Origin: Bacteroidaceae bacterium | GTDB lineage: Bacteria; Bacteroidota; Bacteroidia; Bacteroidales; Bacteroidaceae | Assembly: GCA_017617335.1 (NCBI GenBank) | Contig: JAFZWK010000010.1 | Location: 1-44,807, forward strand | DNA length: 44,807 bases | Reading direction: 5' to 3' | Shown: positions 14,135-27,153 of the stretch, piece by piece | Numbering within the stretch: position 1 is the stretch's first letter | Layout: every line of letters starts with the position of its first letter | Made by a program: the position numbers and the translations under genes | Notes under the pieces: model-generated | Databases searched by the model: none | The model's input: the letters and a program-made list of their open reading frames with translations, nothing else | What the model was told of the DNA's origin: nothing

Positions 14135-15673
14135 TCATTTCTTTCCGAACTGCTTCAGCAAACGTTTCAGTTCTTTTTCGGCAGCCTTGGGCCCCTCAGC
14201 TTTCAGGGTACGAGTATACTGACGAGAAATGGAATCCACCCGAGCTTCTTCCTCAGGGGATGCATAGGCATAGCGGAAACCAGGCTGTTCATTCCAGTGG
14301 CCACGGGTAAAATCGGGCACGCGAACAGGAGCATTGTCGTTGTCCATCGAAAGAGCGCCCAACTCGGCAAGGCAACACCACTCTGCCAAATCATAAACAT
14401 CAATGTCGAGAGGCAGGCCATGCTGCAGGCAATACACCAATCTCAGTTCCATGATGAAATCCATGCCGCCATGTCCTCCCACTTGACGTGCACGTTCACC
14501 ATACTTTAAGGCAATGGGGGACTGGTATTTCTGCACCAATGCATCAAAGTCCTCCTTTGATAGGAATTCATGTCCTGAAAGCTTATCGGAGGTGATGTTA
14601 TCAACACCCGAAGACTTCAACTGATTGCTGCTGAGTGCATATCCTTCGACAGGATACTTGTTGGCAAAGCCCTTGGTACCCGTGAGCTGGTAGCGACGGT
14701 TGTAAGGCTGAGGATTCATCACATCATGCTGAATCTCGATGACCTTTCCTTGTACGGTGCGGATGAGCGTGGTAGTGTGGTCGCCATTACGATACGGCGC
14801 ATCCAGATTGTCCAGATCTTGAGGATATTCCTTAACAGCCACAGGCCCTGTCGCAGGTTTTGTATCCATCGCCACCAACGTCTTGAAACGGTCGCCCCGA
14901 TGGATGTTGAGCAATTGAGCAACAGGTCCAAGACCATGGGTGGGATAAATGTCCCCACGATGCTCCTTGTTGTAGCGCAGACGCCAATTGTGCCAATAGT
15001 TGGTCCAATTCCATAGGCTGTGCAGGTAGGCTCCTTCCACATGAAGAATCTCACCGAAAACACCGTGCTGTGCCATGTTGAGTGTGTTCATCTCGAAAAA
15101 GTCATAGCAGCAGTTCTCCAGTATCATGCAATGGAGGCGTTTCTGTTCGGCCAAGTCTATCAAATCCCAACAATCCTGTACGGTCAATGCCGCAGGAACC
15201 TCCACAACGGCATGCTTGCCATGCTCCAATGCATATTTCGCTATGGGAACATGATGCTCCCAATCAGTGGCAATATAAACAAGGTTGATGTCCTCGCGCT
15301 CGCAAAGTTCACGATAACCATACTCGCCGGAATAGATGTCGGCCTCAGGCAATCCGGCATTCGTCAGGAATTTCTGACATCTCTCGGCACGATCCCTTTC
15401 ATAATCGCAAAGGGCAACGATACGCACCCCGTTCATGTGAGTCCATCGTTCTACGGCATAGGGACCACGACTGCCCAAGCCCACGAAAGCCACCCTGACG
15501 ATAGGTAATGCAGGAGTTGCCAGATTCAAGGCAGATTCCTGACCAGCAGGACGCTGAGGCGTATCCATAACAATGGTTCCCTTCTCCCAGTTCCATCGAA
15601 GTTGGGCACGGCCAGGCATAGCAATCAGAAGACAGAAAGAAAGAAATGCGGATAAAAATGATATCTTTTTCAT
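14135..15673 (-). CDS. Secreted GH109-like Gfo/Idh/MocA protein (alpha-N-acetylgalactosaminidase type)
   Basis: A 512-residue exported protein with signal peptide MKKISFLSAFLSFCLLIAMPGRAQ. The Rossmann motif VAFVGLGSRGPYAVERW (about 61-77) binds NAD; EVPAALTVQDCWDL matches the EKP-type region of the Gfo/Idh/MocA fold with E-V-P here. The segments NYWHNWRLRYNKEHRGDIYPTHGLGP and GGHGGMDF are the hallmarks of GH109 enzymes, which cleave terminal alpha-GalNAc by an NAD-dependent redox mechanism. Length and export fit GH109. Its neighbours are a GH20 gene (convergent) and mucin-type M60 peptidases. Expression probably starts from the two-block promoter module at 15722-15817. The GalNAc specificity is family knowledge and not proven here. 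Confidence 0.88.
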   Translation of the reverse strand: MKKISFLSAFLSFCLLIAMPGRAQLRWNWEKGTIVMDTPQRPAGQESALNLATPALPIVRVAFVGLGSRGPYAVERWTHMNGVRIVALCDYERDRAERCQKFLTNAGLPEADIYSGEYGYRELCEREDINLVYIATDWEHHVPIAKYALEHGKHAVVEVPAALTVQDCWDLIDLAEQKRLHCMILENCCYDFFEMNTLNMAQHGVFGEILHVEGAYLHSLWNWTNYWHNWRLRYNKEHRGDIYPTHGLGPVAQLLNIHRGDRFKTLVAMDTKPATGPVAVKEYPQDLDNLDAPYRNGDHTTTLIRTVQGKVIEIQHDVMNPQPYNRRYQLTGTKGFANKYPVEGYALSSNQLKSSGVDNITSDKLSGHEFLSKEDFDALVQKYQSPIALKYGERARQVGGHGGMDFIMELRLVYCLQHGLPLDIDVYDLAEWCCLAELGALSMDNDNAPVRVPDFTRGHWNEQPGFRYAYASPEEEARVDSISRQYTRTLKAEGPKAAEKELKRLLKQFGKK

Positions 15674-15721
15674 ATTTTTAAAGATTAAAGTTTACAGGTT
15701 ATAGTTCTTGAATTCTGTGTG

Positions 15722-15817
15722 GCAAAGTTACGAAAAAACGAGTGAAATGCAAAAGGAAAACTGGTTTTTATTTTCAATTCCGAGTGCCAGTAAGTTCGCG
15801 ACTCTGTCGCAAAGTTA
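15722..15817 (-). promoter_or_regulatory. Two-block tandem-promoter module, copy A
   Basis: On the minus strand, block 1 (15817-15780) begins TAACTTTG and continues GCGACAGAGTCGCGAA...CTGGCACTCGG. Block 2 (15744-15722) reads CACTCG, six T, CG, TAACTTTGC. Block 2 has TTTG at 15753-15750 exactly 19 nt before TAACTTTG (15730-15723), a perfect Bacteroidetes promoter for the GH109-like gene with a leader of about 45 nt. The whole arrangement recurs at 35394-35484. Block 1 contains the small palindrome GCGAC...GTCGC. Confidence 0.75.
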
Positions 15818-15890
15818 TGAAAAAAATACATTTTTTCCAAGATGCAGTAACTTAGATTAACTTGCAAAACTCCCGTGTCATGCGTGTTGA

Positions 15891-16052
15891 AGAAAACCAG
15901 CAAAACCCTTTTCTCTGGTTGAGACTCTGTCTCTGAAGGCATGCCTGCATCCTTTGCCTCATGAGCTAGCTCACAGTCAAAGCCTGCATTCACACCCTCA
16001 GTCCCTGTGGGACAACAACCAGAGAAAAGAAAAACCTCGCTTCGCAAAAAAA
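15891..16052 (+). repeat. Multi-hairpin element E1
   Basis: The outer stem CTTTTCTCTGGTTG (15908-15921) pairs perfectly with CAACCAGAGAAAAG (16016-16029). Inside are GAGAC-TCT-GTCTC (15921-15933), the palindrome AGGCATGCCT (15937-15946), TGAGCTAGCTCA (15962-15973) held in a CTTTG/CAAAG stem, and GTCCC-TGT-GGGAC (16001-16013). The left flank is AAAACCAGCAAAACCC and the right flank is AAAAACCTCGCTTCGCAAAA. An ORF through the region (15685-16047, minus) ignores this structure and is not supported. Confidence 0.75.
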
Positions 16053-16056
16053 CGAA

Positions 16057-16125
16057 TCGACGATGACAATGACGTTAACGACGGCTGTGGCCAAGGATCT
16101 GGAGTCAAGGGTCTGAATCGAAGAT
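16057..16125. repeat. Degenerate hexamer then heptamer short repeats
   Basis: 16057-16083 is a run of GACGAT/GACAAT/GACGTT-type hexamers. 16097-16125 reads AAGGATC, TGGAGTC, AAGGGTC, TGAATCG, in 7-nt steps. Both types recur in other spacers of the window. No gene or promoter is seen here. Confidence 0.6.
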
Positions 16126-16162
16126 GTCATTGACGCAGAATCATTATGGACTCAAAAAAAAA

Positions 16163-16294
16163 CTACACTCCACACCGAGCACCCATAACACACTAATTAT
16201 CAATAGGATACATGGGTGTAGAGTCTCTCGATACTCTACACCCATGTATATTACTGACCCTCAATGGATTACATGGAACAGGTGTAGAGTGTAG
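16163..16294. repeat. Nested palindrome with a 17-bp perfect inner stem (E6)
   Basis: The inner arms 16208-16224 and 16233-16249 (ATACATGGGTGTAGAGT and its exact complement) enclose an 8-nt loop. The outer arms CTACACTCCACACC (16163-16176) and GGTGTAGAGTGTAG (16281-16294) match at 13 of 14 positions. It has the same outer-stem/inner-hairpin plan as E1-E5 but no shared flanks. Confidence 0.75.
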
Positions 16295-16330
16295 GGCATT
16301 TTTGAGCCCAAAGTGCGATGGTTTTTCATT

Positions 16331-16475
16331 CATTCTGATTGAACCCCAAAGGGGTGATGATGGGGTTGCAGGCTTTGTCCGGGTGCTTGCACACAGGGGA
16401 AAGCCCGCAAACACATCGTCTCAAGACGCAGTCGTAATCAGAATGAAAGGGTATTCTCGGTTTTGGTTAATTCTT
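16331..16475 (-). repeat. Multi-hairpin element E5
   Basis: Outer stem CATTCTGATT (16331-16340) pairs with AATCAGAATG (16436-16445). Inside are ACCCC-AAA-GGGGT (16343-16355), GGCTTT/AAAGCC (16371-16376 and 16400-16405) with flanking GC pairs, and CGTCT-CA-AGACG (16417-16428). The right flank GGTTTTGGTTAATTC (about 16460-16474) matches the flanks of E3 and E4, giving minus orientation. Confidence 0.7.
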
Positions 16476-16502
16476 CTGCGTCTTCAACTAATTTGAAGAA
16501 GA

Positions 16503-16685
16503 ACCAAGAAAACCAACAAAACCACCTCTTGAAAGTCCTGGCACTCTGGTGCCCTGTTCTGCCATCGTCCTGAATCTGGTTGGAAGCCAGCTTCCTCCAT
16601 CTTCCAGCCAATACCATAACCTATCGCAGGGATATCTGGACTTTCAAGAGAAAAAACCCCGCTTCGCTGAAAAACCGATTCAGCC
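16503..16685 (+). repeat. Multi-hairpin element E2
   Basis: The outer stem CTCTTGAAAGTCC (16527-16539) pairs perfectly with GGACTTTCAAGAG (16639-16651). Inside are GGCAC-TCTG-GTGCC (16541-16554), GGAAGC-CA-GCTTCC (16583-16596) and a weaker TATC/GATA pair (16623-16635). Left flank AAAACCAACAAAACC and right flank AAAAAACCCCGCTTCGCTGAA match E1. Confidence 0.75.
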
Positions 16686-16732
16686 AGTCAAGGGGCAAGA
16701 GTTAAAGGGATGGGAGTCAAACGTTTTTTCTT

Positions 16733-16893
16733 GGTTTTTCTTGGTTGTGCTGCAAAGCCGAAAGGCAGTTCTGAGGTATTGGGTCAAGGGCTGTCAAGCT
16801 TGCTTGGACAGAACTTGAGACGATGACTTGGGACAGATGCTCGTAGAGCATGCAGCACAACCAAGGGTTTTTATGGTTTTGGTTGAAAGGCTA
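16733..16893 (-). repeat. Multi-hairpin element E3
   Basis: The outer stem CTTGGTTGTGCTGCA (16741-16755) pairs perfectly with TGCAGCACAACCAAG (16852-16866). Inside are AGTTCTG/CAGAACT (16768-16774 and 16810-16816) and ATGCTC-GTA-GAGCAT (16838-16852). The right flank GGGTTTTTATGGTTTTGGTTGAAAG is the complement of the left flank type of E1/E2, so this copy is reversed. The remaining spacer to 17075 is AT-rich, with no clear TAnnTTTG for the next gene. Confidence 0.75.
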
Positions 16894-17075
16894 ATATAAA
16901 ATCATAACATTTTTTTCATTATTTTCAATCATTTGCCCGTGCGTTAATGAAGACAGACCAACTTTTCGAGAAAATAATTGCACATATCAAGGGAAATTAA
17001 GAAATTTGCATGTTTTATGTGCAGAAATGTACCAGAGAACACAGTGAATAAGGAAATCTTCAAGACTCTAAGAAC

Positions 17076-20000
17076 ATGCAAAAAAAATACTATACGGGAC
17101 TTTTCAGGATGCTGACAGCAGTCATGGCTTTTTGTAGCCTTACTACTGTCTGGGCTGTGACAGAAGTCCATGTGGAAAAGGCAGGAACGCTCTCTTCGTT
17201 ACTGACGACCACTGACAGCGAACTGAAGCTGACAGGTTCCATCAATGGTACTGATGTCAAATATCTCCGACAATTGATAAACGATGGAACTGTAACAATC
17301 CTTGATATCTCGGGAGTGAAAATCGTGAGCGGCGGCGTAGCATACGTTGAGAGCCTCAAGACGACAGCAGATGTCATCGGTGAGGATATGTTCAGGGACT
17401 GTAAGAAGTTGCGTTCCATTGTATTGCCTACCTCGATCAGTTCCATCGCCCGCAGGGCTTTCATGAATACAGGTCTGCGAAGGGCAGAGATCCCCAACAA
17501 TGTACAGCGACTGGGCTATGGTGCATTTTCCGATTGCACCATGCTGGCTACAGTAGTCATTGGCAAAAAGATGGCACACATAGAACAGGGAACTTTCTAC
17601 AACTCGGCAGTAAAGACGGTTTTGGTGAAACCGTTGTCACCACCAACCTTAGATGCCTATATCTTCACCTCGAAACCTACCATCCGTGTCTATTCCGATG
17701 TGCTTGCTGACTATAAGGAATCAGCATGGGCACAATATGGTACGCTGGTGGGACGACTGGAAGACAACTATCCGATGGAGAGCGATGGAAGCGACGATGT
17801 AAACAATCTACGCGACACCTACTTCGAAGATGCTGCCTGCACAGAGCTGAAGGCTGCCTATCAGGCCATGAGCGATGAGGAGCTAACTGCTGCCATGAAG
17901 GAAGGAGGAATGCCTGACTTCATGATTACCATTGCCTTGAAACTGAAGAACCAACAGTGGGACACCTATGAGAAGGATTTCCGTATCCACAGCTATCATG
18001 CCTACAGCGATGCCAAGTACTGGAACGATCTGCTCAAGAGCAGCGGTGGTTCCTATATGGGCAACCCTACGGGTATTTACACGAAAAGCAACGAGCCGAT
18101 CTACGTGTTTGTGGATGAGGACGTTCCCAACGATGCCACGCTTTACATGGCAGGCTGTACAGGAAACGATATCCTTTCGGATGGCAAGTCTGGCAAGAAG
18201 TTATCGAAAGGCCTCAACATCATGGATGGACAAAAGGATGCACTTTACTATATCCTCTATACAGCCGACACAAGGTCGAAGACGAAGACATTGGATCAGT
18301 GGCCTGCCATCAAGATCCACATCGAGGGTGGTACTGTAAACGGCTACTACGACGTGGCACATCATAGCGACAAGGAATATGCGGCTCTCTTGAAACGTGC
18401 CACCCATGAATGCTTTACCGTCAAGGGGGGCCAGTCACTCTTCAACTTCAAGACTGCCACCTATAAAAAGATATGGCCTTCCAGCATCGACAAAAGCATC
18501 TGTTGGTTCGACAGTCTGACAGTGTGGGAGAAGGAACTCATGGGCTTCTGCGAGTCCGTTGCTACGGGACAACGTGCCGGAGCACCTTTCTGCCTGACAG
18601 GCGGCGAAGCCATCTTCCCTCTCTATTACAACAATCCAAACTTCGCCATTCAAGGCATAGAGGCTGATGCGGGATGGGCCAACTCGTCATGGTACCGCAC
18701 CTCATACAACTCGGAAGGATGCATCTCGTCCGCCTTCAACGTTACACGCGCTGATCTTGACGACTGGTGTGCTGCCCATGAATGTGGACACAACAATCAG
18801 GGAGTCATCAGTTTAGAGGGCGGTACAGAAGTGTCGAACAACCTATTCTCGAATGTCATTCGTTACTTAGATGGACTGGTTACCTCAGATGGAGCATCGC
18901 TCTCTGTCGTGATGCAGGAGTACGCCCGACATGAACCCTTCTTTACACGCAGTTTGGATAGCCAGATGCGCATGTACTACCAACTTTACCTCTATTATCA
19001 TCAGGCACAAAAGAACACCTCGTTCTATCCTGAACTCTTCCGTGAACTGCGTCGCGATCCATTAGGTTCACGATACAACAATTCATACGAGACCAGTCTA
19101 AAGTTCGTCCGCAAGGTATGTGAGGTGGCACAGGAAGACCTGACAGACTTCTTTACCGCATGGGGCTTCTTCGAGCCTTTCAGCAACCTGACGATAAATG
19201 ACTACGGCGCTCACACCATGACAGTACGCCAGTCCGATATTGACCGCACGCTGAAAGAAATCGCCAAATATCCCAAGAAGAACCGCACTATCCTATTTAT
19301 AGAAGACCGCGTGGACTACGTGCCAACCACTGATTTCCTGACCACCGCTGGCAACAAACGGCGCAACTCGGAAAGAGTTGGACAATGCGGCGACCTTGGA
19401 CAGTTCACCTCTTATATGGCAGACGTTATTGAACCCTCGAACTATACCTACCTGCAAGCCGACACGATGTATGCCATGTCTGGTACGGGCGGCGTGGGCT
19501 TCTTGGTGCTTGATGCTGAGGGGAAGATGCTTACCGCCTCTAATGCCTTGTGCTTCAGCATCCCCAGCAGTGTGGGCGACAACTTCTCCATCTACTCGAT
19601 CGATGCCGACGGCACGCTGCACGAAACCACTAAGTCCGGCAGCGGCGCTGAGGTGGTATGGCTCCAGACACCTGGCACGCTGTCAGATTCTCTCTCTGCT
19701 CAGGTCATCAAGGCAAGAGTGGGAGGACGCATCAACGGTACTGACATCAAGTATTTGCGCCAGCTTACCAACGATGGCAACCTACTTGCACTTGACCTGA
19801 CGGAAGCCAGGGTTGCATCAGGCGGTCTTCCCTATTATGAGTCCTACCGCACGACAGCCAACACGCTGTGCCGCTATGCCTTCTATAAGTGTGCCAACCT
19901 TATCAGCATCTATCTGCCCCAGACAATCACTGCGATAGAAGACCATGCCTTTACCCAATCGGGATTGCGCGAGTTGTACATCCCTGAGAGAGTCACTTCG

Positions 20001-20417
20001 ATAGGCGTTGAATCCTTTGGTGACTGCAAGCAACTGACGAAGGTGGTTATCGGTTCAAAGGTCAGGAGCATATCGCAAGGCGTCTTCTACAATTCAGGCG
20101 TACGCGATGTGTATGTCATGCCGAAGACCCCACCTGCCCTTGGTCCCTACATCTTCACCAGCAAGCCTACCATTCATGTTTATGCAAGCTCACTCGAAAG
20201 CTACAAGGCTTCTGAATGGGCAGGTTACGGCACGATAGTGGGCGACCTCGATGATTACGAAGACATAACTCCCGTTGAGTTACCTCACTACGGCCAGCAA
20301 ATGGTAAATGATCAATCGTCAAATGATAAATGCTACGATTTACTGGGACGTGAAGTCTACCGTCTGCAACCTGGACGAATCTATATCAAGAACGGGAAAC
20401 GATTTATTCAACGGTAA
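17076..20417 (+). CDS. Secreted M60-type (enhancin-like) metallopeptidase between LRR_5 domains, copy 1
   Basis: A 1113-residue exported protein. The signal peptide is about residues 1-27 (RMLTAVMAFCSLTTVWA). A BspA-like LRR_5 block (about 55-230, units such as LRSIVLPTSISSIARRAF) is followed by a linker and the M60 region (about 245-840). It holds the zinc site HECGH (568-572) with a candidate third ligand E585 in EGGTE. A second LRR_5 block (about 880-1065) precedes the tail DLLGREVYRLQPGRIYIKNGKRFIQR-like end, shared with other secreted proteins here. M60 enzymes cut mucin-type O-glycoproteins, so the protein probably attacks host mucins, with the LRR blocks binding substrate or partners. 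The start codon is the ATG before the signal peptide. A 53-nt gap separates it from a paralogue of identical length. Confidence 0.9.
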   Translation: MQKKYYTGLFRMLTAVMAFCSLTTVWAVTEVHVEKAGTLSSLLTTTDSELKLTGSINGTDVKYLRQLINDGTVTILDISGVKIVSGGVAYVESLKTTADVIGEDMFRDCKKLRSIVLPTSISSIARRAFMNTGLRRAEIPNNVQRLGYGAFSDCTMLATVVIGKKMAHIEQGTFYNSAVKTVLVKPLSPPTLDAYIFTSKPTIRVYSDVLADYKESAWAQYGTLVGRLEDNYPMESDGSDDVNNLRDTYFEDAACTELKAAYQAMSDEELTAAMKEGGMPDFMITIALKLKNQQWDTYEKDFRIHSYHAYSDAKYWNDLLKSSGGSYMGNPTGIYTKSNEPIYVFVDEDVPNDATLYMAGCTGNDILSDGKSGKKLSKGLNIMDGQKDALYYILYTADTRSKTKTLDQWPAIKIHIEGGTVNGYYDVAHHSDKEYAALLKRATHECFTVKGGQSLFNFKTATYKKIWPSSIDKSICWFDSLTVWEKELMGFCESVATGQRAGAPFCLTGGEAIFPLYYNNPNFAIQGIEADAGWANSSWYRTSYNSEGCISSAFNVTRADLDDWCAAHECGHNNQGVISLEGGTEVSNNLFSNVIRYLDGLVTSDGASLSVVMQEYARHEPFFTRSLDSQMRMYYQLYLYYHQAQKNTSFYPELFRELRRDPLGSRYNNSYETSLKFVRKVCEVAQEDLTDFFTAWGFFEPFSNLTINDYGAHTMTVRQSDIDRTLKEIAKYPKKNRTILFIEDRVDYVPTTDFLTTAGNKRRNSERVGQCGDLGQFTSYMADVIEPSNYTYLQADTMYAMSGTGGVGFLVLDAEGKMLTASNALCFSIPSSVGDNFSIYSIDADGTLHETTKSGSGAEVVWLQTPGTLSDSLSAQVIKARVGGRINGTDIKYLRQLTNDGNLLALDLTEARVASGGLPYYESYRTTANTLCRYAFYKCANLISIYLPQTITAIEDHAFTQSGLRELYIPERVTSIGVESFGDCKQLTKVVIGSKVRSISQGVFYNSGVRDVYVMPKTPPALGPYIFTSKPTIHVYASSLESYKASEWAGYGTIVGDLDDYEDITPVELPHYGQQMVNDQSSNDKCYDLLGREVYRLQPGRIYIKNGKRFIQR

Positions 20418-20470: not shown

Positions 20471-23400
20471 ATGAAGAACAATAGCTTTATGAGATTATTC
20501 AGAGTACTGACAGCAGTCATTGCTTTAGGCAGTTTTACTAACGTGTGGGCAGAGACCGTAGTCCATGTCGAGAAGGCAGGAACGCTCTCTTCGTTACTGG
20601 CAACCACAGAAACGGAAGTAAAGGTGACAGGTTCCATCAATGGCACCGATGTAAAATATCTTCGTCAGATGACCAACGAAGGGAAAATGGTTTCGCTGGA
20701 TTTGTCGGAAGTGAAGATTATCAGCGGCGGTGTGGCCTACTACGAGAGCTACAAGACCGAGAATGACGTCATCGGCACCTGTATGTTCACGGAGTGTTCG
20801 AAACTGCGTACCATCGTACTGCCCAATTCCATAAACGCCATCGGCAGCAATGCCTTCTCGCGTTCAGGAATCCGTAAGGTGGACATCCCCAACAGCGTGT
20901 CCAGATTGGGAGGTGATGCCTTTGCCTACTGCGACTATCTGAGTACAGTTGTCATCGGCAGCAGGGTATCCAAACTGGATCAGGGTGTCTTCTACAGTTC
21001 ACCTGTGAAGAATGCCTACGTCAAGCCTATTACCCCCCCTGATACGCCTGCCTATCTTTTTTCATCGAGACCCCTTATCCGTGTCTATACGGATGTCGTG
21101 AGCGACTACAAGCAATCCAGTTGGACACAGTATGGTACCATCATGGGTAACCTGGAGAGCTATTATCCAAAGGAGGACGATGGCAGTATTACGGTGAATA
21201 ATCTGCGCGACACGTACTTCGAGGATGCTGCCTGCACGGAACTGAAGGCTGCCTATCAAGCCATGAGTGACGAAGAACTGACAGCCGCCATGACAGAAGG
21301 CGGAATGCCAGACTTCATGATTGCCATCGCCATAAAGCTGAAGAACGAGGACTGGAAGAAATTCGAGAAGGACTTCCGTATCCATAGCTATAATGCCTAC
21401 AGCGATGCCACCTACTGGAACAACCAGATGAAGAGCACGGGCGGTTCCTATATGGGCAACCCCACAGGTATCTACACGAAGAACTACGACCCGCTCTATG
21501 TCTTTGTGGACACAGACGTGCCCGAGGATGCCACCCTGTATATCGCAGGCTGTGCTGGCAACGACCTCGTGACGAATGCCAAGACAGGCAAGAAACTCTC
21601 AAAGGGTCTGAACATCGTGGATGGTCAGAAGGATGCCCTCTTCTATATCGTCTATACGGCAGACACTAAGTCGAAGACAAAGAAACTCAGCGAATGGCCT
21701 GACATAAAGATTCATATCGAAGGAGGCGTGGTAAACGGTTACTACGATGTGGCACGTCATAGCGATGCCGACTATAAGGCACTGCTCAAGGCTGCTACCC
21801 ACGAGCGGTTCACCGTCAAGGGAGGAGAGGCACTCTTCCATTTCAAGACCACAACATTCAAAAAGGTATGGCCCTCCACCATCGACAAGAGTATCTGCTG
21901 GTTCGACAGCCTGACAGTATGGGAGAAAGAGCTCATGGGGTTCTGCGAGTCAGTCGCCACAGGGCAACGTGCCAAGTCACTCTCTTGTCTGACAGGCGGT
22001 GAAGCCATCTTCCCCATCTACTACAACAACCCCAACTTCGCCATTGAAGGAGAGGAATCAGATGCGGGATACGCCAACTCTACGCCCTACAGAACGTCCT
22101 ACAATTCAGTAGAGTGCATCTCGAACTCCTTCAACGTCAGCCGAGCAGACCTCGACGAGTGGTGCTCAGCACACGAATGCGGGCACAACAATCAGAGCAC
22201 CATCAGCTTAGAGGGTGGAACAGAGGTGTCGAACAATCTCTTCTCAAACTACATTCGCTATCTCACTGGTATCGCCACGTCCGTTGGTTCACCCATTTCT
22301 ACGGCCATGGACGATTATGCCAGACACGTCCCCTACTTCACCAGATCTGTAAATTGCCAGCTGCGCATGTACTACCAGCTATACCTCTACTACCATCTGG
22401 CACAAAACAACACCTCGTTCTATCCAGAACTCTTCAAGGAACTGCGCCGTGACCCGTTAGGCACACGATACAGTAATTCCTACGAGACCAGCCTGAAGTT
22501 CGTCCGCAAGGTATGCGAGGTGGCACAGGAAGACCTGACCGAATTCTTCACCGCATGGGGATTCTTCGAGCCTTTCAACAACCTCAAGATCGAAGACTAC
22601 GGCTCACACACCATGACGGTACGTCAGGCCGATATCAACCGCACCTTGGCAGCGATATCGAAGTATCCCAAGAAGAACCGCACCATTCTCTTTATTGAGG
22701 ACCGCGCAAAGTATGTGCTGACCAACAACCTCTTGACAACAGCTGGAAAGAAGCGGCGCGATTCTGATCTGGTGGGGCAATGCGGCGAGTTGGGACAGTT
22801 TACCGATTACCTCCCTGGAGCATGCGAGCCATCCAACTATACATACCTGCAATCCGACTCCCTCTATGCCCTGTCTGGAACGGGCGGCGTGGGATTCCTT
22901 GTTCTCGACAGCAACGAGAAGCTGCTCTATGCCTCCAATTCTCTGAACTTCTGCATCCCCACCAGTGTGGGAAATGACTTCACCATCTATTCCGTGGATG
23001 TAGATGGAACCCTGCACGAGGTGACCAAGGCAGGAGAAGGCACCGAAAGCGCTACAGTCAGCAAGGCAGGCACGCTCGCCAGCGCCATATCAGCCCAAGT
23101 CATCAAAGCCATTCTTGGCGGCAGCATCAATGGTACGGATATCAAGCTTATGCGTAAGCTCATCAACGAAGGGAACCTGGCATCGATTGATCTCTTCAAT
23201 GCCAGGGTGGTAGCTGGTGGCCAGGCATATTACGAGAGCTACACAAGCACCCTCAACACGATAGGCAAGTTCGCATTCTACAACTGCAAGAAACTCATCT
23301 CCATCATCCTGCCTCAGAAAATCACCAGGATAGACTCGAATGCCTTTGCCAATTCTGGCCTGAAGGAAATCTACATTCCAGAGACGGTGACCTCGATAGG

Positions 23401-23812
23401 TGGCGATGCCTTTGCCTACTGCGAACAGTTGACACGCGTTGTCATCGGCTCCAAGGTCAAGACAATGGAGCAGGGTGTCTTCTACAGCTCACCCGTCAAA
23501 GACGCCTACGTCATGGCTCTCACACCCCCAGCCATCAATCTTTATCTCTTCTCCAGCAAGCCCACCATCCACGTCTACGCCAGCGCTCTCTCCGCTTACA
23601 AGGCATCGGCCTGGGCAGAGTTCGGCACCATAGTGGGCGATCTGGATAAGTACGAGGACATAACGCCCGTGGTACTGCCTGAGGTTGACCAAGAAATGGT
23701 AGATGCTCAATCGGCAAATGATAAGTGGTATGATTTGATGGGACGGGAAGTCACAGCCCTGCAGCCCGGACAGATCTATATCCGGAATGGGAAACGATTT
23801 ATTCAACGGTAA
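20471..23812 (+). CDS. Secreted M60-type metallopeptidase between LRR_5 domains, copy 2
   Basis: A tandem paralogue of the preceding gene, also exactly 1113 residues, with the same order: signal peptide (RVLTAVIALGSFTNVWA), LRR_5 block, M60 region with HECGHNNQ and EGGTEVSNN, second LRR_5 block and a tail ending in NGKRFIQR. The catalytic core is highly alike (DLTEFFTAWGFFEPF, FYPELFKELRRDPLG); the LRR blocks vary more, for example SRSGIRKVDIP against NTGLRRAEIP. It probably shares a transcript with copy 1. Divergent LRR blocks around a conserved protease suggest different binding targets, which is inference. A bidirectional terminator follows at 23832-23866. Confidence 0.9.
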   Translation: MKNNSFMRLFRVLTAVIALGSFTNVWAETVVHVEKAGTLSSLLATTETEVKVTGSINGTDVKYLRQMTNEGKMVSLDLSEVKIISGGVAYYESYKTENDVIGTCMFTECSKLRTIVLPNSINAIGSNAFSRSGIRKVDIPNSVSRLGGDAFAYCDYLSTVVIGSRVSKLDQGVFYSSPVKNAYVKPITPPDTPAYLFSSRPLIRVYTDVVSDYKQSSWTQYGTIMGNLESYYPKEDDGSITVNNLRDTYFEDAACTELKAAYQAMSDEELTAAMTEGGMPDFMIAIAIKLKNEDWKKFEKDFRIHSYNAYSDATYWNNQMKSTGGSYMGNPTGIYTKNYDPLYVFVDTDVPEDATLYIAGCAGNDLVTNAKTGKKLSKGLNIVDGQKDALFYIVYTADTKSKTKKLSEWPDIKIHIEGGVVNGYYDVARHSDADYKALLKAATHERFTVKGGEALFHFKTTTFKKVWPSTIDKSICWFDSLTVWEKELMGFCESVATGQRAKSLSCLTGGEAIFPIYYNNPNFAIEGEESDAGYANSTPYRTSYNSVECISNSFNVSRADLDEWCSAHECGHNNQSTISLEGGTEVSNNLFSNYIRYLTGIATSVGSPISTAMDDYARHVPYFTRSVNCQLRMYYQLYLYYHLAQNNTSFYPELFKELRRDPLGTRYSNSYETSLKFVRKVCEVAQEDLTEFFTAWGFFEPFNNLKIEDYGSHTMTVRQADINRTLAAISKYPKKNRTILFIEDRAKYVLTNNLLTTAGKKRRDSDLVGQCGELGQFTDYLPGACEPSNYTYLQSDSLYALSGTGGVGFLVLDSNEKLLYASNSLNFCIPTSVGNDFTIYSVDVDGTLHEVTKAGEGTESATVSKAGTLASAISAQVIKAILGGSINGTDIKLMRKLINEGNLASIDLFNARVVAGGQAYYESYTSTLNTIGKFAFYNCKKLISIILPQKITRIDSNAFANSGLKEIYIPETVTSIGGDAFAYCEQLTRVVIGSKVKTMEQGVFYSSPVKDAYVMALTPPAINLYLFSSKPTIHVYASALSAYKASAWAEFGTIVGDLDKYEDITPVVLPEVDQEMVDAQSANDKWYDLMGREVTALQPGQIYIRNGKRFIQR

Positions 23813-26742: not shown

Positions 26743-26774
26743 GGAAAACGGGATTTATTTTGCATTGAAACAAG

Positions 26775-26871
26775 AAAATGACGATAACGAGCCTCCACGA
26801 ATCGCACGAATCGCAAGTATCGAGACGAGAGACGAGAGTCAAGAGTCTGGAGTCGAGGGTCTGGGGTCCCG
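26775..26871. repeat. Run of 6-, 9- and 7-nt short tandem repeats
   Basis: GACGATAACGAG (26779-26790) is followed by three 9-mers CACGAATCG, CACGAATCG, CAAGTATCG (26796-26822). Seven heptamers then run exactly in step: AGACGAG, AGACGAG, AGTCAAG, AGTCTGG, AGTCGAG, GGTCTGG, GGTCCCG (26823-26871). No gene overlaps. Confidence 0.75.
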
Positions 26872-26964
26872 TTGTCAGAGATTAGACAAAAACGGTTTTT
26901 CGTCAAATTAGTTGAAAGCACAGAAGAATTAACACTTTCATGAAGAAGACGACAAATCATTTCT

Positions 26965-27153
26965 CGGTGAAACTGTTTTTTCAGCGAAAGCGGGTTTTTT
27001 CCTCTGATGATGTTTCTTGTTGCAAGGCAACAAGCGTTGATGGAAGGGCTGGTACTGAGAGTTCGCTCTCAAGCACAAGGCCATGACAGCAGCGCAAGGC
27101 TCGAAGAGCAAAACATTAGAGGGGTTTTAAAGGTTTTGATTGAATAGCTGACA
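26965..27153 (-). repeat. Multi-hairpin element E4
   Basis: The outer stem CCTCTGATGATGTTT (27001-27015) pairs with AAACATTAGAGG (27111-27122) with a 3-nt bulge. Inside are CTTGTTGC-AAG-GCAACAAG (27016-27034), TGAGAG-TTCG-CTCTCA (27056-27071) and GCTC-GAA-GAGC (27099-27109). The left flank (26981-27000) is TCAGCGAAAGCGGGTTTTTT; the right flank is GGGGTTTTAAAGGTTTTGATTGAATAG. Both are the reverse of the E1/E2 flanks. Confidence 0.75.

Follow-up and report, generated by a model that had tools for sequence, protein, structure and literature searches.

In the window, by which we mean the whole analysed stretch of 44,807 nt, a cluster of structured repeats occupies the spacer that separates a gene of GH109/GFO_IDH_MocA type (14135-15673, -) from one for an M60 peptidase (17076-20417, +). 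We interpret this cluster as a mobile element present twice in tandem, as E1..E4 and E2..E3, both copies being without a gene, with ends that are defined by shape and would be recognised and cut by a GxxExxY protein, and we give this reading a probability of roughly 0.6. The structure of the elements and their mobility are well supported by sequence comparison, mobility being deduced from presence and absence between species. As two inverted, shape-conserved ends with tips surround one nuclease-like gene in the full-length relatives, the arrangement has the anatomy of a transposable element.

Structure of the repeats in the spacer

Four related structures lie between these two divergent genes, in the order and orientation E1 (-), E4 (+), E2 (-) and E3 (+), and they pair as E1..E4, with a different repeat (E5) inside, and as E2..E3 (Table 1). 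The perfect outer arms of 14, 13 and 15 bp claimed by an earlier note for E1, E2 and E3 were found at those lengths. Its E5 with 10-bp arms may correspond to the 10-bp pair at 16233-16242/16281-16290, but this pair belongs to the different repeat. The common flanks it described are present as an AAAACC-NNN-AAAACC side and a side with AAAAACC and a GC mini-hairpin, but the inner side of E3 has no clear GC mini-hairpin. That picture was also incomplete, as E3 and E4 lie on the strand opposite to E1 and E2, a long middle arm forms a fourth helix, and the elements are paired ends.

Table 1. Features of the cluster and related repeats in the window; R1 and R2 are the covariance models described in the text.
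Feature	Position	Strand	Details
Insert stretch holding both units	15648..16956		1309 nt, versus 138 nt in sister species G070 with the same two genes
E1, left cloverleaf end of unit 1	15890..16054	-	R2 114.7 bits at 15898-16045; tip 15890-15907; outer stem 15908-15921/16016-16029 (14 bp, perfect); inner GC mini-hairpin 16037-16045
E5, different repeat, ACTCTACACTCTACACC type, inside unit 1	16147..16310		blastn copies in own genome and genus
E4, right cloverleaf end of unit 1	16296..16470	+	R2 113.3 bits at 16312-16458; outer stem 16329-16340/16436-16447 (12 bp, perfect); tip GGGTATTCTCGGTTTTGGTT
E2, left cloverleaf end of unit 2	16506..16677	-	R2 51.8 bits at 16516-16666; outer stem 16526-16538/16638-16650 (13 bp, perfect)
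E3, right cloverleaf end of unit 2	16724..16884	+	R2 73.7 bits at 16725-16874; outer stem 16740-16754/16851-16865 (15 bp, perfect); tip GGTTTTTATGGTTTTGGTT
E6, fifth, single cloverleaf copy, upstream of an ABC transporter gene	26986..27131	+	R1 49.8 bits; R2 77 bits

On the strand bearing the GGTTTTT flanks, here called the G-strand, the fold is a cloverleaf with an outer stem, a 5' mini-hairpin, a long arm broken up by internal loops that are small and often of 2 nt, and a 3' mini-hairpin. The long arm is often capped by CTNG (CTTG 52, CTCG 12 and CTGG 3 of 131 scorable caps among 176 elements). All four structures beat dinucleotide shuffles, in keeping with the earlier expectation of stems stronger than in shuffled sequence; the RNA fold z-values of E1, E2, E3 and E4 are -4.6, -4.6, -6.0 and -5.5 on the AAAACC-flanked strand, and -6.9, -4.5, -8.1 and -5.3 on the other strand. 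The RNA energies of the G-strand versus the other strand are -61.7 versus -46.9 kcal/mol for E1, -50.9 versus -44.6 for E2, -66.7 versus -46.9 for E3 and -53.5 versus -48.3 for E4.

Two covariance models were used. R1, built from six E1-type copies of which E1 is one row, finds copies of all four subfamilies and has matches in 17 of 61 genus genomes; the window's own E2 is absent from its matches at E up to 1. R2 was built from 57 rows, one wrong-strand row being kept, and includes rows near E2, E3 and E4 as well as rows contributed by three gene loci (L100, L107 and L122). Among the R2 rows 90.8% of the cells are paired versus 53.5% in shuffles, 936 cells are changed on both sides versus 268, and the score is 0.856 versus 0.209; none of 500 shuffles reaches the observed value in any of the three, and it should be noted that the R2 alignment was fitted to the structure. 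Double changes in 46 of its 46 pairs are unremarkable alone, as 57 of the 500 shuffles match that. A plain MAFFT alignment of 22 copies, made from sequence only, gave the same kind of fold with compensatory change in 35 of 44 pairs. Pairing is maintained by compensatory change while the sequence changes, and the selection on structure that had been proposed for the cluster is upheld both by the double-change cells and by the sequence-only alignment.

The strand can also be fixed. With the wrong-strand row dropped, the 56 remaining R2 rows have 123 G.U versus 24 A.C and 121 G.A versus 5 T.C. The G-strand gives the better fold in 53 of the 56 rows, and in 95 (DNA parameters) or 89 (RNA) of the 98 ends of 49 gene-bearing units, a preference that is partly circular because the strand was assigned by the covariance model. 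These tests fix the strand, and both RNA and DNA are compatible with them. Left and right ends of the same unit share a mean identity of 65%, compared with 59% between units and 57% after shuffling, and the fold is common to both. In Xylanibacter brevis ATCC 19188 the two ends fold into almost perfect cloverleafs of about -100 kcal/mol, and their long arms differ in sequence and still pair.

Copies, tips and empty sites

A blastn search with the whole cluster gave 30 matches in its own genome, a 62% complete assembly, some of them to E5. Full or partial copies of E4 with 94-96% identity were found at C37, C14, C20 and C69, and copies of E2 at C59, C14, C20, C34 and C73. Among 40 relatives, 24 of the same genus, five matched by blastn; two of these (G001 and G010) have E1-type copies and the others matched in the E5 part. 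Further copies with kept pairing, on which the earlier note had made its claim depend, do occur in relatives, as R2 has matches in 25 of the 61 genus genomes, own included. In the rest of the order R2 matched 2 of 294 genomes, with nine and five matches, ten candidates per genome being scored. One of these two genomes has a GxxExxY gene beside a '- +' pair rather than between two ends (L223).

Of 138 R2 matches, 18 on the opposite strand and 3 that repeated a single place were removed, which left 117 in 70 loci. They form 36 neighbour pairs within 400 bp, of which 31 are '-+', 4 '+-' and 1 '--'; some of these pairs are copies of each other and hence not all are independent. Within the own genome, the partner of an E1-type end is of E4-type in the window and of E2-type at C14, and that of an E2-type end is of E3-type in the window and again at C59. 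As these pairings vary, ends of unlike sequence are evidently combined. As controls, 22 loci gave no R2 match below E 0.3, and a second set of 34 loci, which includes 30 GxxExxY genes from outside the order, gave none below E 0.4; four Y1 loci are common to both sets. Cloverleaf ends around GxxExxY genes outside the order were thereby rejected (0 of 30 loci).

A phage or plasmid origin was considered and dropped. The cluster gave no blastn match in phages or plasmids, a scan of viral contigs with the GxxExxY profile A5 found no relative, and tblastn in plasmids gave distant GxxExxY genes only, in 6 records, all below 60% identity.

The element ends carry tips of the form ACAAAAACC-NNN-AAAACCC and variants. 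Across the 49 gene-bearing units the G-strand tip consensus is GGGTTTTNNNGGTTTTTGTY, the tips are mostly inverted, and both tips match a loose pattern in 40 of the 49; of 176 ends, 142 agree with the GGTTTTTGTT tip in at least 8 of its 10 bases. In one locus (L107) the terminal inverted repeat is 20 bp and perfect. Similarity between copies stops near the tips within G006, G017, G061 and parts of G000, and it runs past the tips in G050 and G067.

We detected no target duplication. Where both tips could be placed (40 units), direct repeats did not rise above mismatched pairs (best z 1.8 over 176 settings), and for 48 units with long enough flanks none exceeded the 99th percentile. Inverted flanks above the 99th percentile were found in only 4 of these 48, and insertion into palindromes as a rule was rejected. 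So was homing to a conserved cut target, as by eye none is shared beyond the tips, bar a motif in some units. This outer motif, resembling TCACC.GCA.A.CCTGTG, was seen by eye a few bases past the tips in L253, L266, L277, L283 and L298.

Empty sites in relatives, which the earlier note had proposed to look for, were found at two places. The sister species G070 lacks the insert at the window locus (Table 1); in its genome, which has a completeness of 97%, the search of the genus genomes gave no R2 match at E up to 0.001, and weak matches (E 0.001 and 0.011) lie beside its own GxxExxY gene (L148). A direct repeat of 24 nt and 75% identity flanks the insert (15816-15839/16895-16918), which may be chance. 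The second place is another unit (L199) that lies 6 nt after a gene we take, from its translation, to be RNase Y-like. Four relatives match both sides of this site and have 97 (G057), 104 (G019), 121 (G075) and 197 nt (G059) versus 801-831 nt in L199; G010 also matches both sides and yet has 925 nt.

The GxxExxY gene between the ends

Comparison of open reading frames in loci around the copies revealed one family between the ends, GxxExxY (TIGR04256/PF13366, PDDEXK_3), which belongs to the PD-(D/E)XK nuclease superfamily. All 4 linked proteins score above the curated cut-offs (TIGR04256 95.9-115.3 bits versus 35; PF13366 96.2-116.1 versus 22). By pattern, the GxxExxY and ExK motifs are present in 70 of 71 proteins kept from 80 loci, and G57, E62, Y65, D102, E112 and K114 are invariant across 57 rows. 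No homologue with a solved structure was found. Full-length gene-bearing relatives measure about 0.75-1.2 kb, with one gene between the ends.

In the genus, GxxExxY has 71 matches in 39 of 61 genomes, and R2 at E up to 0.001 finds cloverleafs in 13 of the 70 loci covering them, L148 being just at 0.001. On a tree of 68 of 72 ORFs the 13 cloverleaf-labelled rows need 5 changes versus 12.2 in shuffles, and one clade of nine rows has R2 matches in 9 of 9 (SH-aLRT 98); this is a quick tree, for which the program warned of long branches meeting, with two of the nine clade rows among them. Any GxxExxY occurs in 20 of 25 R2-positive versus 19 of 36 R2-negative genomes (Fisher, p 0.03). Members of the nine-row clade occur in 8 of 25 versus 0 of 36 (p 0.0004), which is partly circular as the ends are part of the units.

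Searching named genomes with a protein query from the bracketed genes gave 217 relatives, and the 80 best were retained; these loci hence share descent with the bracketed genes, and at least 6 of them were already in the genus set. All but one of the 80, a Lachnospiraceae, are titled Prevotellaceae, Bacteroidaceae, Bacteroidales or related, many come from ruminants, and isolates among them are Xylanibacter brevis ATCC 19188, Hallella mizrahii and Prevotella sp. P3-122. With R2 at E up to 0.01, overlapping hits removed and a limit of 500 nt, a cloverleaf lies near the gene in 75 of the 80 loci, on both sides in 60, and in the layout '- gene +' in 49. Other layouts are '+ gene +' (7), '+ gene -' (2) and '- gene -' (2), and the remaining loci have a cloverleaf on the right only (10), on the left only (5) or none (5).

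The window's own genome has no GxxExxY match in its 62% complete assembly, and 17 of the 25 element-bearing genus genomes are without a member of the nine-row clade, so mobilisation in trans or assembly gaps must be assumed. Loss or the incomplete assembly may account for the own genome. An HMM search of ORFs of 25 aa or more found no GxxExxY remnants in the gene-less pairs, hence these are not plainly decayed full units. In L107 a C-terminal fragment of the gene may be left, as one comparison of copies suggests.

GxxExxY is widespread, with 165 of 395 phylum genomes matching the A5 profile. Inverted arrays of 9-10 nt repeats, e.g. CACGAATTACACGAATT and CACAGATTACACAGATT, often flank those genes that have no cloverleaf (L325-L354 and genus loci L140-L206), and such array-flanked loci are possibly the same mobile system in a simpler form. 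In an inverted-flank test of genus GxxExxY loci 27 of 53 were above the 95th percentile for inverted and 10 for direct repeats; outside the order 0 of 30 were, a set spoilt by its background. A second GxxExxY group (L143, L144, L147 and L148) has cloverleaf-like matches, and two of its loci, L144 and L147, have the array tips CACAGATC and CGCAGATC instead of ACAAAAACC.

Mechanism, rival explanations and known systems

The two ends of a unit are cloverleafs in inverted orientation, about 120 nt long and each with a tip that closes it. We propose that the GxxExxY protein reads the ends by their shape and makes its cuts at the tips, presumably acting in cis on full-length units and in trans on gene-less ones. 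As shape is kept without sequence, recognition of folded single strands is suggested, and since at each end the better-folding strand is the one that leads to the 3' tip, the substrate may be single-stranded DNA, e.g. the lagging-strand template, which we consider less certain than the recognition of the ends. PD-(D/E)XK nucleases are not known to join DNA alone, hence a partner for ligation or replication would be needed, and host repair or replication might complete the transfer.

The strongest competitor of this mechanism, to which we would give perhaps a quarter of the weight, agrees that the elements are mobile and makes GxxExxY a passenger or helper, for instance a defence or processing nuclease, while another enzyme acts on the ends in trans. 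The lack of GxxExxY in the own genome and of clade members in 17 of the 25 R2-positive genomes fits this, as do the 36 close pairs (gaps of 266 bp or less) with no GxxExxY gene between them. It is harder to reconcile with the finding that 49 of 80 loci have one family, from one clade, at a constant position between the ends, and with all 8 genus genomes with clade members being R2-positive, the partly circular association given above. Moreover, the other enzyme is not a Y1 transposase, as Y1_Tnp is found in 2 of 25 R2-positive versus 6 of 36 R2-negative genomes (p 0.45) and not at all in the own genome. The same counts speak against the elements being REPINs moved by a RAYT/TnpAREP HUH transposase, which inverted palindrome doublets, gene-flanking copies and the lack of detectable target duplication would otherwise recommend. 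By inspection the foot in E1-E4 is GGTTTTT(T) and not GT[AG]G, and the ends measure about 120 nt versus 21-65 nt for REPs (PMC6006769); we regard this explanation as already contradicted and very improbable.

The cloverleaf might instead be transcribed, outwards from each unit, and work as RNA, e.g. as an antitoxin or structured partner of the nuclease. Frequent G.U pairs and strong RNA folding energies would suit such a role, but the strand preference is equally strong with DNA parameters, inverted copies with tips at both ends of a gene fit DNA ends better than an RNA gene, and the only matches to Rfam 15 in the window at gathering thresholds are two tRNAs. The structured RNA that the earlier note had listed among possible roles thus accounts for the inverted pairing less well than a mobile element, and we think it unlikely. 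Maintenance for the host, as protein-binding sites of the chromosome or as transcription terminators, seems the least probable of all; the window copies are intergenic, as such sites could be, but they lie between divergent genes where terminators are not expected, and the elements are patchy across species (25 of 61) and missing from the orthologous G070 spacer. The protein-bound chromosomal element suggested before belongs here. The non-autonomous mobile element, also among the original suggestions, is the role we favour, on the evidence of the multiple copies, their pairing in inverted orientation, the tips, the empty sites and the relatives that bear a gene.

Several known systems resemble the mobile element proposed here. 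MITEs are likewise short, gene-less and multi-copy with inverted ends, whereas the ends here are alike in shape more than in sequence and have no detectable target duplication. The attC sites of integrons are shape-recognised, sequence-variable single strands; the paired inverted ends around one gene set our elements apart from them. IS200/IS605 elements make no target duplication, and none was detectable here, but our elements have no Y1 transposase between their ends (the gene being PF13366), their tips are inverted, and a cloverleaf takes the place of a single hairpin. Subterminal ends defined by structure are a further likeness to IS200/IS605 (PMC6006769). Nearest in working are REPINs and REPtrons, which also comprise intergenic inverted palindromic doublets (31 of 36 pairs here), many gene-less and gene-flanking copies, and compensatory change (PMC3116915, PMC6006769). 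They differ in that REPs, as described, are hairpins of 21-65 nt with a GT[AG]G foot and the HUH (Y1) transposase TnpAREP (PMC6006769), whereas we find a PD-(D/E)XK GxxExxY protein, cloverleaf ends of about 120 nt and no GT[AG]G guide. The intervening sequences of 23S rRNA, with their S23 four-helix protein, are selfish as well and have a terminal inverted stem, one small ORF and tandem short repeats near it (PMC4990558); here GxxExxY replaces S23, the units lie outside rRNA genes (there is no rRNA match in the window), and two inverted cloverleafs stand against one outer stem.

We found no description of such an element family in the open-access literature. In the excerpts of that literature that mention GxxExxY, it appears as the neighbour of a CRISPR-type reverse transcriptase and among the listed genes of an algal virus; we found there no function for GxxExxY/PF13366 and no mobile-element description. 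We consider it an even call that these units constitute a new minimal class of mobile element, in which GxxExxY alone would move DNA, the ends would be addressed by cloverleaf shape plus a short tip rather than by sequence and so be interchangeable even when their sequences differ, and the GxxExxY genes found across the phylum, many of them with inverted tandem 9-mers at their flanks, would be a simpler ancestral form. If GxxExxY does mobilise the surrounding DNA, an unexplained and widespread protein family gains a function, and there would be a transposition system whose only gene does not encode an HUH, DDE, serine or tyrosine enzyme. A four-way-junction shape that stays constant while the sequence of the ends changes would offer a clean model for shape-based DNA recognition, and the cultured hosts Xylanibacter brevis ATCC 19188 and Hallella mizrahii make the system testable.

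Further repeats accompany the units. E5 was rejected as a member of the cloverleaf family, R2 having no match there at E up to 0.1; the repeat has inverted ACTCTACACTCTACACC-type ends and an inner hairpin, with further copies in the own genome and genus genomes, and its end motif was not matched in any locus with a number above L081. Tandem repeats with degenerate units of 6-10 nt (GACGATGACAATGACG, GGTTAGCGGTTAG, ATAACCAATAACC) occur in and around units (window 16050-16120 and 26770-26880; gaps in L084, L103 and L132). A small TTCAACTAAATTGAAGAAGAACC-type hairpin adjoins the tips of several copies in G000 and G067, and is seen at 16470-16505 in the window and in L085-L095. Beside the spacer, tandem M60 peptidase genes (17076-20417 and 20471-23812) carry BspA-type leucine-rich repeats and are adjoined by GH20 and GH109-like genes, a neighbourhood which we presume to be a mucin-degradation locus.
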